From Sipunculus nudus (taxonomy: Eukaryota > Annelida > Sipuncula > Golfingiida > Sipunculidae): DNA of 64,000 nucleotides. This document shows positions 9,523-54,136 of this stretch, in pieces. The stretch lies in contig CM049320.1 of NCBI GenBank assembly GCA_026874595.1, forward strand, positions 8,311,464 to 8,375,463, read 5' to 3'. The position numbers and the translations under genes are program-made. The notes below the pieces were generated by a model that saw only the letters and a list, made by a program, of their open reading frames with translations, did not search any database and was not told where the DNA came from. Positions within the stretch are counted from its first letter, which is position 1. The number at the start of each line of letters is the position of its first letter.

Positions 9523-9681
9523 TGTTACGGGGTACATAAAAAAGTGGACCGAACTCTCTCGCTAGCAAGGCTTGTTTTTTCTAGCGAAGCGGCTGGAACG
9601 CCGGACATGTGCGCTACCGACAGGAGTTCGAATCCCGGGATCAGCCCTTTATTTCCCCCTGAGCAAAATGATTCCCTAACA
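9523..9681 (+). mobile_element. Solo LTR of the tRNA-bearing miniature LTR family
   Basis: This 159-bp unit begins TGTTACGG and ends CCCTAACA. It aligns in reverse complement with both LTRs at 44219-44374 and 44521-44672: shared blocks include GACCGAACT, TAGCGAAGCGG, GCCGGAC, GTTCGAAT and CCCTGA. It carries the same tRNA-like internal promoter. The A-box-like part is TAGCGAAGCGGCTGGAACG at about 9582 and the B-box-like part is AGTTCGAATCCC at about 9625. No second LTR, primer site or purine tract is next to it, so it is a solo LTR. A short (AT)n touches its right end and hides any target duplication. Confidence 0.7.
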
Positions 9682-17479: not shown

Positions 17480-18336
17480 TGTTACAGGTGCCCCTTAAAT
17501 TGGGGGCAGTGGTCTTACAGATGATTGTTTTATTGTGCACATGGATGTTCCATGTGTTGATGGCTTTACGTTTGTGTGCCACGCGTAGCTCGTGTTGTAG
17601 CGGCCTCGCTTGGCCGGATGTTGCAGGCTCGGTTTAATCCTCATTGATTGAACCCTAGATACACAGCGTTCTTTGTTCTAGCATGTTCTTTGAACATGTG
17701 TACTGTGTTAGATTCTTTAGATTGTTCGAGCAATGGAAGGTTCTCGGCTGGAGGTGAGAAGTTATAAATAGGGGGCTGTGTTTTTGGACCGAGGGGGAGG
17801 GGAGGTAAGAGAATATTCCAGCGGCCACAAAAGCGTGTATGTCGGTTTGTGGGACCTATTCCGATAAGTGCGACAATTATAGATTTTCTTCAGATTTTCT
17901 TCTGGATTTTGTGATGAATCTTATTTGGTCTTCAGTTTACTTTCTGGATTGTTACAAGAGCTTTACATTGGACTGCTATACTCCGAGAGAATTTGTGTGA
18001 ACTTTTCATCTGGCTTATACATTTTAAAGAAATTATCGCTGTGACAGTGTTGGTATCCAGGTACTCTGCACTTTGTTTATTTTACTGTGTGATTGTATTG
18101 ATTTGGTGTTATACTGCTGTGATCCTGTGTAATTGTATTGATTTAGTGTATTGTATTGTTAGGGTTGTTTTAAGAATAAATTATAGTTATTTGTTAACAA
18201 AAAAACACTGACTTCTTTATTCATTCCCCTAGACATTTCACGCTGCCTAGTGTTACAGAATCTGATTTTTTTATCTCCTTGACAAAATTTATGTTCATCA
18301 CTTATACGTGATCTGTTGATATTAGGTTCCGTATCA
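17480..18336 (+). mobile_element. Solo LTR, family A, copy 1
   Basis: This 857-bp unit starts TGTTACAG and ends CCGTATCA (the other copies end CCGTAACA). It is a close homologue of 53293-54136 and a more distant one of 28287-29024 over its full length. It has a TATA box (TATAAATA, 17763-17770) followed by a conserved GGGGGCTGTG, and AATAAA at 18175-18180, as expected for LTR U3 and R/U5. The flanking four bases are ATAC on the left and ATAT on the right, a 3/4 match to a 4-bp duplication. There is no internal domain, so it is a recombined solo LTR, probably of a Ty3/Gypsy-type element. Frames inside it (17389-17637, 17993-18211) are not genes. Confidence 0.82.
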
Positions 18337-43749: not shown

Positions 43750-44218
43750 CATTTACGTATTAATTAAGAAGCCATCAGAACGTGCTCTGCTATACCTTAT
43801 GTATGTGATTCAATATTATATTTATAGAAGACTTAGAAGACGATGAGGTTCTGAAGTTGTCAGGCGCAGTTTCCGGAAAACAGAGTGTAACAGTTTCTTG
43901 AAGCCTACGTCCTATAACCAAGACGCACAATGATATCAGTCTAAATGTTTCAGACATTTCCTTCTGCCAGTCAGAACATCAGCGTTCGTAACCAGTTCAA
44001 CTGTGGATTTTCATTCAATTCGTGAGCCTTGTTTCAGTGGGGGACGTGTCTCCTTATCATAAAGTGGGAAACTATGTACCTTTGTCGATCTCACTTCTTA
44101 ATATATGCCTAAAGGTTTTTTTGGTTTGTTGGGCTACTCAAAATGAGAAGAAAATTATATATAATATGCGGTAGTTGGCCCCTAAACCGGCGTAATCCAC
44201 AGCTCACATTACAGCTGT
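43750..44218. other. Stretch with no supported gene
   Basis: Unrecognised sequence upstream of the miniature LTR element. Confidence 0.45.
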
Positions 44219-44374
44219 TGTTACGAACACAAATTGCTCAGGGAAAAAGACTTTGCTGATCTGGATTCGAACCCATGTCGGTGGCGCTTAAGTCCGGCGT
44301 ACCAACCGCTTCGCTAGTAAAACAAGCTTTACTAGCGAGACAGTTCGGTCCGCTTTTATGTCACTCGTAACGCA
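44219..44374 (-). repeat. TRIM 3' LTR
   Basis: On the minus strand it runs from TGCGTTACGAG to TTCGTAACA. The start is slightly altered: two extra bases relative to the inverted terminal TGTTACG. The tRNA-like core shows TAGCGAAGCGGTTGGTACG and GGGTTCGAATCC. Confidence 0.8.
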
Positions 44375-44383
44375 CCCCCTCTT
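44375..44383 (-). promoter_or_regulatory. Polypurine tract (AAGAGGGGG)
   Basis: On the minus strand this nine-base purine run directly precedes the 3' LTR, the position where plus-strand DNA synthesis is primed in LTR elements. Confidence 0.7.
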
Positions 44384-44500
44384 AAGAGTGTTCTGCTATC
44401 AGAACAAGACTATCCCAAGAGTCACACCTTCGGTGAACTAGGTGGCGTTATTATCTAATTACTTCAAACCACCATTCCCGGGGCCACAAAGTTTGCCGTC

Positions 44501-44518
44501 ATCCCGGAGGAGCCCCCA
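44501..44518 (-). promoter_or_regulatory. Primer-binding site complementary to tRNA-Pro
   Basis: On the minus strand TGGGGGCTCCTCCGGGAT starts two bases after the 5' LTR. The conserved animal tRNA-Pro 3' end is ATCCCGGACGAGCCCCCA, and the site is complementary to it at 17 of 18 positions. Position and length are those of a retroelement primer site. Confidence 0.8.
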
Positions 44519-44520
44519 TT

Positions 44521-44672
44521 TGTTACGAAGAAAATTTGTTCAGGGAAAAAGACTGGGCCGATCCGAGATTCGAACCAATGTCGCTGGCGCTCAAGTCCGG
44601 CGTACCAACCGCTTCGCAAAGCAAGCGTTACTAGAGAGGCAGTTCGGTCCGTTTTTATGTCATCCCATAACA
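44521..44672 (-). repeat. TRIM 5' LTR
   Basis: On the minus strand it begins TGTTATGGGATGACATAAAA and ends CTTCGTAACA. A-box-like TTGCGAAGCGGTTGGTACG and B-box-like TTGGTTCGAATCTC lie about 35 bases apart, as in tRNA genes. The frames at 44442-44678 (both strands) are shadows. Confidence 0.8.
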
Positions 44673-45868
44673 TTGTAAACCAAACTCTAATTATGAATAA
44701 AATATGGTGTTGAAAATTGAGAAAAAAATAGCTTTTACGTAACTAATATAATTAGTTTATACTCCGTAAATATGGCGGGACTAAAGAAAATAATTATATT
44801 CGTAGGGAGAGGTTGTCTTTTTTGTCAAAAGGGGGTTGCCCGGAGAATTTCATAAATGTAGTCAATTACTTGCACAAAATGTTGCATTATGACGATGATG
44901 TATAAGCCAGAGGGGAGGTCACATGGTTATGTAGACTTCATGGAGGGACGTATCCGGGCAACATTTTTTCTTTCTCTAGTACAGTGATGAACTCAAAGTA
45001 AAATTTACGTCTCTGGTTCTGGGCTGAATTTTTAAGAAACAGTTTCATTGCCGATTTCATCCCTTGGAGAACTCGAGTCTATGCTTACCAAGGATTGATA
45101 CAGGCCGGTGCACGCACGATATAAGCCGGCAGTGATACAGACTATTCACGTAGCGTCGTATCGGAGGAACAGAAGTACCTGTACCCGGGAAGGAGGTTCT
45201 GCATCCCAATGATAGCAGGTTTGGTCGGTTATTCATATCAGATAACTAACTACCGGGCTTTCAAATTCAAGCAAAAATACCCTTCATAAGTCCGCTCTAT
45301 CAACAGACTGCTCGTTCATTCCAATATCGATTGTCGTATTTCGTATCTAACATTTAAAGAGCACCTGCTGTGTTCCTTGTTATGGATTTTTTCACAAGAT
45401 TTAGGTTTATAGTATTTTTTCAGCAGTTTTGGTAGAGTTGCAAAAAAAATAAAAAAAAGTCGGAAAAGAAGTTGCACAAATATTATTTAAATGCAGATTT
45501 ATAGGAATTAGGATTTTACAGGATTTATTAGAATTCAGTTAAACATATTGGAGACGAGAGATGGACAGAAGAGGCTGACATTGAAAGGAGGACAGTGTCA
45601 GGAGTAAAAAAAAAAGAATTTAGAAGCGAAGACAGATATCCTTATAGTCGTACGAGCATCAACACACACGCGAGCGTCTACTGTATAAGCCAAGAGTGTA
45701 GGTTTATTAAACGAAATGAGATACATACCAAATACCCCAACGGGAACATTTAAGGTTTTTAATGGTATCATTTGAATATAACAAATTTCCTTGGTGGAAG
45801 GACGGACTCGAAAACTCAGTGTCCGTCCTCGCCGACAAGTGTGGGGAAAAAGCCTTTATATTGCTAAT
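44673..45868. other. Stretch with no supported gene; short hairpin
   Basis: GGACGGAC and GTCCGTCC form an 8-bp inverted repeat with a 13-base loop at 45800-45828. The minus strand is open for about 55 codons near 45055-45225 but without splice context. The plus frame of the next exon-like island reaches back to about 45783. Confidence 0.4.
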
Positions 45869-53292: not shown

Positions 53293-54136
53293 TGTAACAG
53301 AAACCCCTTTTATTGTGTGCAGCGGTCTTACAGATGGTTGTTTTATTGAGCACACGGATGTTCCATGTGTTGTTACCATTTTGTTTGTGTACTACACGTA
53401 GCTCGTTTTGTAGCGGCTTCGCCTTGCCGGATGTTACAGGCTCGGTTTAATCCGCGTTGGTTGAACCCTAGAAACACAGCTTTCTTTCTTCTAGTATGTT
53501 CATTGAAGGTGTGTACGGTGTTAGATTCTTTAGATTGTTCGAGCAATGGAAGGTTCTCGGCTGGAGGTGAGAAATTATAAATAGGGGGCTGTGTTCTGGA
53601 GCCGGGAGAGGGGTGAAAGAGTGTTCCAGCGGACACGTAAGCGTGTTAGTCAGTGAGTTGGACCTATCCGATTATCCAGTAATTTCAGAGATTCTACTAT
53701 TACTAACACTTTACAATTTATTGCTGCCTGTCTCAAGTTACTTTCTGGATTGTTACAAGAGCTTTACATTGGACTGTTATTCTCCGAGAGAATTTGTGTG
53801 AACCTTTTTATCCGGCTTATACATTTTAAAGAACTTGTCGCTGTGACAGTGGTGGTATCCAGGTAGTGTGCACTTTTTTTTTACTGTGTGATTGTATTGA
53901 TTTGCTGTTATACTGCTGTTATACTGTGTGATTGTATTGATTTAGTGTTTTGTAATGTTAGGGTTGTTTTAAGAATAAATTATAGTTATTTGTTAACAAA
54001 AAACATTGACTTCTTTATTCATTCCCCTAGACATTTCACGTTGCCTAGTGTTACAGAATCTGATTTTTTTTTATCTCCTTGACAAAATTTATGTTCGTCA
54101 CGCATGCGTGATCTTTTGATATTAGGTTCCGTAACA
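53293..54136 (+). mobile_element. Solo LTR, family A, copy 3
   Basis: This 844-bp unit starts TGTAACAG, ends CCGTAACA and is flanked by ATAT on both sides (53289-53292 and 54137-54140), an exact 4-bp duplication in AT-rich DNA. TATAAATA lies at 53576-53583, followed by GGGGGCTGTG, and AATAAA at 53974-53979. It is highly similar to copy 1 over most of its length except a replaced stretch around 53680-53740. Frames inside it (53365-54082) are not genes. Confidence 0.85.

Follow-up and report, generated by a model that had tools for sequence, protein, structure and literature searches.

Palindromic and chimeric insertions of a Helenus-type miniature retrotransposon with tRNA-like long terminal repeats in Sipunculus nudus

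The element and its genomic family

Contig CM049320.1 of the Sipunculus nudus assembly GCA_026874595.1 carries, within the 64,000-nucleotide stretch that we analysed (positions 8,311,464 to 8,375,463 of the forward strand; hereafter the window), a 454-bp non-coding terminal-repeat retrotransposon in miniature (TRIM) on the minus strand at 44219-44672. It consists of two direct long terminal repeats (LTRs) and a 146-nt internal part (44520-44375), and each LTR contains sequences resembling the A and B boxes of a tRNA gene (Table 1). Here we describe this element, its family in the 1.43-Gb genome, and a set of palindromic, tRNA-joined and chimeric insertions that may record errors made during its reverse transcription.

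The initial annotation had described two same-direction LTRs, a tRNA-Pro primer-binding site (PBS) two bases past the 5' LTR, a purine tract directly before the 3' LTR and a non-coding centre. All of these were recovered in our analysis, which added the strand. The LTRs match as direct repeat blocks of 51, 45 and 44 nt (94%, 89% and 84% identity), and BLAST of one against the other gave 85.6% identity over 146 nt. Because the LTRs have diverged to this extent and the flanks agree at only three of four target-site positions, the window copy is, judged by its sequence, an old insertion. A two-base spacer (44520-44519) separates the 5' LTR from the PBS. The first two bases of the 3' LTR, next to the polypurine tract (PPT), probably lie outside the LTR proper and would have been lost at integration. 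Near the element, at 44835-44863 and 44934-44962, two 29-nt arms lie 70 nt apart and form an imperfect inverted repeat with 72% complementarity.

Table 1. Positions of the element's parts and of related LTRs in the window
Feature	Positions	Strand	Remarks
5' LTR (element orientation)	44521..44672	-	152 bp
A-box-like TTGCGAAGCGG, 5' LTR	44609..44619	-	one change
B box GGTTCGAATCT, 5' LTR	44566..44576	-	one change
T-run, 5' LTR	44546..44550	-	
PBS TGGGGGCTCCTCCGGGAT	44501..44518	-	17/18 to complement of the genome's own tRNA-Pro 3' end plus CCA
Non-coding centre, PBS to PPT	44384..44500	-	
PPT AAGAGGGGG	44375..44383	-	abuts 3' LTR
3' LTR	44219..44374	-	156 bp
A-box-like TAGCGAAGCGG, 3' LTR	44306..44316	-	
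B box GGTTCGAATCC, 3' LTR	44263..44273	-	T-arm-like; landing site in the palindrome model
T-run (TTTTT), 3' LTR	44244..44248	-	possible RNA polymerase III terminator
Left flank CTGT	44215..44218		target-site duplication, 3/4
Right flank TTGT	44673..44676		target-site duplication, 3/4
Second family copy, solo LTR	9523..9681	+	~80% to 3' LTR over 143 nt; flanks TTAT/ATAT
Family X solo LTR	17480..18336	+	TATAAATA and AATAAA; flanks ATAC/ATAT
Family X solo LTR	53293..54136	+	TATAAATA and AATAAA; flanks ATAT/ATAT

A genome search returned at least 846 first-look candidates with the LTR as query and at least 913 with the internal part. Forty of each were scored, and 70 chains were built in 68 loci (L009-L078, two repeats dropped), comprising 45 LTR-internal-LTR copies, 7 single LTRs, 9 tandem arrays (seven with three LTRs, two with four) and 9 partial or other forms. 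The internal part occurs in two lengths, near 146 bp and near 117 bp, and LTR-internal-LTR copies with clear ends (n=21) span 396-467 bp. A purine run of at least 7 was present at 62 of 69 internal-to-LTR junctions. At the printed junctions the PPT is mostly followed by an additional TG at the start of the 3' LTR; these two bases are missing from the outer 5' end, and we read their loss as trimming by an integrase.

Target-site duplications (TSDs) were tested in the 31 of 70 chains with clear TGTTA/TAACA-type ends. Eighteen have an exact 4-bp TSD, against 2.1 expected from shuffled partners (maximum 7 in 2,000). No exact duplication was found at k=3 or k=5 in these chains, and the three at k=6, a count inflated by AT-rich flanks, were reached by shuffles too. 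Among the eighteen are four solo LTRs (L018, L022, L024 and L029, of which L022 sits in an AT repeat) and three tandem LTR-internal-LTR-internal-LTR arrays (L023, L037, L074), each bracketed as a whole by a single exact 4-bp duplication. The family thus bears the marks of tRNA-Pro priming and of integrase-type 4-bp duplication. LTR-type reverse transcription and integration, as initially proposed, are supported by paired LTRs, PBS, PPT and duplications across many copies; the family does not consist solely of poly-A-tailed single units that never lie beside a PBS. Tandem short interspersed elements (SINEs) that merely resemble LTRs would share the tRNA-like boxes and the short unit, but they would account for neither the PBS and PPT nor the 4-bp duplications and the solo LTRs with exact duplications, and we find this origin scarcely credible. 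SINE arrays were rejected on the unit boundaries, which are TGTTA/TAACA with a 4-bp TSD and not a variable TSD with an A-rich or simple-repeat tail.

TRIMs with tRNA promoters have been named Helenus, or TRIMp3, by Kojima 2024, and occur in animals including bivalves (PMC10886601). They measure 311-1263 bp and have A and B boxes in the LTR, a PBS, a PPT and, in animals, a 4-bp TSD (PMC10886601). Each defining feature that could be tested was found here, and on these grounds the element is a Helenus-type TRIM. Solo LTRs are known there as well, tRNA-Pro is among the bivalve primers, and tandem arrays have been described for LTR-11_DR (PMC10886601). The suggestion that the element is Cassandra's animal counterpart, using a tRNA-like promoter, therefore stands as a description of a TRIM with such sequence in its LTR, but not as something new, because that class is Helenus. 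Cassandra itself shares a Pol III (RNA polymerase III) promoter in the LTR, but it is a land-plant element with a 5S rRNA promoter (PMC10886601), and window 44000-44900 contains no 5S match at E<=10. Ajax of nemerteans is likewise a TRIM with a small-RNA promoter in the LTR, but this promoter is 5S-derived and the TSD is 5 bp (PMC10886601). The bivalve biv-TRIM (Satovic 2019, PMC6934838) also has solo and tandem forms; as far as its main text goes, it differs in being without an identifiable canonical PBS, and the term 'polymerase III' is absent there. A 2026 meeting report mentions Helenus in passing.

The tRNA-like boxes and the choice of polymerase

The initial annotation had placed A- and B-box-like sequences at tRNA-gene spacing in each LTR, and this arrangement was borne out. 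In the 3' LTR the two boxes start 43 nt apart and TTTTT starts 14 nt behind the B box, which is the layout of a tRNA gene. We then considered 117 ordinary family LTRs, a set chosen by similarity to the window copy in which other subfamilies are under-sampled. Strict A and B boxes at 30-60 nt spacing were present in 63 of them, compared with 0 of 5,850 dinucleotide shuffles, and 63 have a B box followed by TTTT after 8-24 nt. Since a search of window 44000-44900 against Rfam returned neither a tRNA nor a 5S match (E<=10), we classify the boxes as a promoter-like remnant and not a tRNA gene. The tRNA model RF00005 had no match (E<=5) when the LTRs from 8 loci were scanned; one locus (L175) gave a weak tRNA-Sec match (22.7 bits against a gathering score of 47, E 1.6), and the tRNA-Pro body in another (L187) matched RF00005 at 30.7 bits. 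Mean scores of the LTR against tRNA-His (30.8) and tRNA-Pro (29.1) lie too near each other to single out one as the ancestor, with shuffles at a mean of 21 and a maximum of 28.

Transcription of the element by Pol III is plausible on this evidence. For Helenus in general, Pol III transcription has been inferred from sequence alone, and most families were judged not to be functional tRNA genes (PMC10886601). The element could instead be an ordinary RNA polymerase II (Pol II) TRIM in which the boxes are inert remains of a SINE or tRNA that inserted long ago. The LTR contains a TATA-like CATAAAAG, as expected of a Pol II LTR, and the TATA-like ATAAAA occurs in 96 of 117 family LTRs, in the majority ~40 nt ahead of the A box. 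Moreover, 54 of the 117 fail the strict box test, and column conservation is nearly even across the LTRs, with the boxes conserved no more than other columns and no promoter-specific signal, so that the copies show no selection on the boxes. These features weigh against a Pol III start. However, AATAAA is found in just 4 of 117 family LTRs, while two long solo LTRs in the same window, from a second family that we call X, have TATAAATA and AATAAA, and the family majority keeps the boxes, the tRNA-like spacing and a T-run at the tRNA-terminator position. We hold the Pol II reading to be unlikely, though of all the alternatives it deserves the most serious attention.

Palindromic, tRNA-joined and chimeric insertions

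The 20-mer from the 3' end of tRNA-Pro occurs at 52 exact places in the genome, of which 36 were read; 16 on contig C14, together with 87 one-mismatch places, were set aside. On the left side, 28 of the 36 have a Helenus LTR arm, three a tRNA-Pro body, four are tRNA-Pro genes, and one is of another kind (L192). In all 28 LTR-arm junctions the arm reaches its T-arm and then passes into CGAGCCC of the tRNA-Pro 3' end. On the right side, 22 of these continue into an inverted Helenus LTR end, four into an inverted X LTR, and two into other sequence (L197, L198); two of the right arms, in L186 and L194, are short and were classified by visual inspection. CCA comes next at 21 of 28 LTR-arm junctions and in all three loci where a tRNA-Pro body is joined to LTR ends (L174, L187, L191), whereas it follows in none of the four tRNA-Pro genes. 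The left Helenus arm measures just 20-30 nt in L173, L199 and L203 and is internally deleted in L178 and L198. As a separate observation, the same 20-mer clusters at C14:19.08-19.32 Mb, in part in ~3.6-kb steps, and a one-base variant clusters at C5:41.59-41.80 Mb; the repeated unit may be a tRNA gene or some other sequence.

Among six palindromes with both unique 3' (U3) ends in reach, exact 4-bp duplications flank five (L169, L175, L177, L178, L184) and the sixth (L188) agrees at three of four bases. Five exact duplications of six were reached by 0 of 719 other pairings of their flanks; the end finder picks the best candidate ends, and in four of the six there was a single candidate pair. 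The two arms of a palindrome are 0.86-0.95 alike, which is above their mean similarity to the 117 other LTRs in five of six, the exception being L184. Exact 4-bp duplications likewise flank two insertions of rearranged form, TGTT in L189 and CAAT in L198, and at the remaining junction loci one end is missing, altered or unreached. Some palindromic or rearranged insertions are carried in local genomic duplications (L169/L170 at C1:12.760 and 12.763 Mb; L189/L190 at C9:64.80 and 64.89 Mb).

The primer sites of the family come in two main forms. An exact pattern search gave 590 matches, and the palindrome share rests on the 54 whose letters were read, 47 of them on contig C1. The bases that follow TGGGGGCTCGTCC are the template form AACGTGACGG or close to it in 35 of 54, with 13 bases matching tRNA-Pro, and GGGATGACGG or close to it in 10, with 18 bases as in tRNA-Pro. 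Four run into the T-loop complement GGGATTYGAA, that is, a palindrome junction (two of these are one local duplicate), three are X-like with two mismatches allowed, and two are of other kinds. A separate count found 332 exact matches to the template form. The 18-base form is what copying of the primer tRNA would be expected to leave.

Two other origins for the junction loci need to be weighed. The palindromes might derive from an LTR-encoded, tRNA-like RNA ending in the tRNA-Pro 3' end, a primer encoded by the element itself. In several loci the left arm indeed reads A box, B box, tRNA-Pro 3' end, CCA and TTTT, and would then encode a primer that matches the PBS perfectly. Yet the left arm extends to the outer U3 end in the six palindromes with both ends in reach, while a Pol III transcript would start near the A box, and in three loci a tRNA-Pro body stands in place of the LTR arm; we favour this origin less and consider it doubtful. 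Alternatively, the loci could be later genomic rearrangements, through inverted insertion or recombination between copies, with no complementary DNA (cDNA) intermediate, as the irregular L186, L192, L194, L197, L198, L199 and L203 might suggest. Such events would hardly give the LTR arm one constant endpoint in the T-arm, as in 28 of the 36 places read, place CCA at the LTR-arm junctions but at no tRNA-Pro gene, or leave exact duplications around five of six testable palindromes, and we judge them quite improbable. Later genomic inversion was accordingly rejected as the source of the junctions, on the constant T-arm endpoint, the CCA and the exact duplications.

The inverted X LTRs at four of the junctions connect the element with a family of longer LTRs. 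LTRs of X are ~850 bp long, the window has two and a fragment, and the genome has at least 4,965 first-look candidates. We know X from solo LTRs, from 145 places where an LTR, the spacer and a PBS with the tRNA-Pro core are joined exactly, of which at least one (C4:43282912) is itself a chimera (L179), from one leader (L211) and from a stretch whose pol frames are broken (L210); none of these was a full-length X. Behind one X PBS, at 2.1-3.3 kb, lies part of an integrase zinc-binding domain (Integrase_H2C2, PF17921, E 2.6e-9) in broken frames. Chimeras of X and Helenus occur at four loci (L179, L180, L196, L200), and one of them, L200, is bounded by the U3 end of Helenus on one side and that of X on the other, between ATAC and ATAC, an exact duplication. 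In all four the T-arm comes from Helenus and the PBS from X, a polarity that the search pattern favours. X, tRNA-Pro and Helenus are joined in one stretch in L187. A further mixture, identified by coordinates at C2:91589584, has an X LTR end followed by the Helenus-type leader TGGGGGCTCGTCCAACGTGACGG. Because mixed X-Helenus cDNAs have integrated, these loci suggest that Helenus and X share particles and that one integrase accepts the ends of both. Animal Helenus has previously been tied to gypsy on the grounds of similar PBSs and of TSD length, and a more direct pairing was made once, in fungi (PMC10886601).

Elsewhere in the assembly, contigs C60-C89 and C123 (L079-L087) are bacterial-type, carry several oxidase genes of near-equal score, and perhaps come from symbionts. 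A search of the assembly for cytochrome oxidase returned ten genes of bacterial type and, on C5, a single short fragment. The oxidase of L080 is at best 58% identical to the matches listed, all from distant bacteria, and has a COX2-like frame ahead of it, and C123 has a cbb3-like oxidase.

A proposed strand-transfer model for the junction loci

The anatomy and duplications of the junction forms are directly visible, and from them we infer an order of steps, a Pol III start and a role for X as helper. In the explanation we prefer, at a probability of about 0.7, the element is a Helenus-type TRIM in which a primer-copied end that mis-anneals at the LTR T-arm yields palindromes, with the enzymes coming from X. 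Transcription by Pol III would start a few bases ahead of the A box of the 5' LTR, read through the T-run there, and stop at the T-run of the 3' LTR, which would make the tRNA-like part the repeated (R) region. tRNA-Pro would prime reverse transcription, and an X-type LTR retrotransposon would provide Gag, reverse transcriptase and integrase. Plus-strand strong-stop DNA, ending in the copied primer TCCGGGAT, could then anneal to ATCCCGGA of the LTR instead of its proper partner, an error made possible by the LTR's own resemblance to a tRNA T-arm. Extension from the T-arm would copy R and U3 into a palindromic cDNA with two U3 ends, which would integrate, and the same error with the PBS end of X would produce the X-Helenus chimeras. 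L184 and the X chimeras would require two molecules.

Sequence pairing is consistent with such an error. The commoner, template-form PBS, with only 13 matching bases, has its mismatches near the 3' end of TCCGGGAT, while the T-arm ATCCCGGA, which 45 of 117 LTRs have but the remaining 72 and the two window LTRs lack, matches that end in full. This LTR-PBS complementarity of 8 contiguous bases also sets the family apart from Helenus as published, where none is reported between the tRNA-like part and the PBS (PMC10886601). When folded as DNA, the majority LTR-PBS piece has its tRNA-copied 3' end paired to the T-arm (-14.1 kcal/mol, z score -1.6), whereas the template-form end leaves the 3' end unpaired to the T-arm (-9.4 kcal/mol, z score -0.2).

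Several further observations count against this explanation. The folding support is modest, with 17 of 200 shuffles folding equally well. The arms of L184 are no more alike than unrelated LTRs, and a single folded molecule is for this reason insufficient for all palindromes. A variant of the unique 5' (U5) region present in five independent junction loci is found in 0 of 117 ordinary LTRs, and because of this absence the junction forms may belong to a different subfamily or be self-spreading. Many junction loci are irregular and beyond the reach of the duplication test; in the family at large, 39 of 70 chains have no clear ends and 13 of the 31 testable chains have no exact 4-bp TSD. As to the helper, the integrase stretch behind the X PBS is not tied to an intact X, the one X leader that was read (L211) shares only the LTR end and PBS with Helenus, and two chimeras that were extended (L179, L196) showed no far end with a duplication, leaving one of three extended chimeras clean.

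The Helenus class is known, and what is new here are the palindromic insertions, the joins to a tRNA-Pro body, the X chimeras and the two PBS forms. The main text of PMC10886601 makes no mention of inverted, palindromic, chimeric or template-switch forms, and our searches of open-licence papers returned no title or abstract describing palindromic, tRNA-joined or chimeric derivatives of this kind. We lean, by a little, towards the broader view that a tRNA-like LTR promoter acts as a second landing site, so that Pol III-type TRIMs would regularly make palindromes and helper chimeras. The resulting fossils would record a CCA-tailed tRNA-Pro primer, a strand-transfer error and a helper, and may show a primer tRNA being written beside an LTR, an alternative to an origin by SINE insertion. 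A tRNA-like LTR would then have a cost, as a site for strand-transfer errors. The integrated chimeras point to a helper candidate for the Helenus family, and primer use, second-strand transfer and helper identity would become readable from genome sequence alone. The junction forms also make it possible to test how LTRs acquire tRNA sequence.
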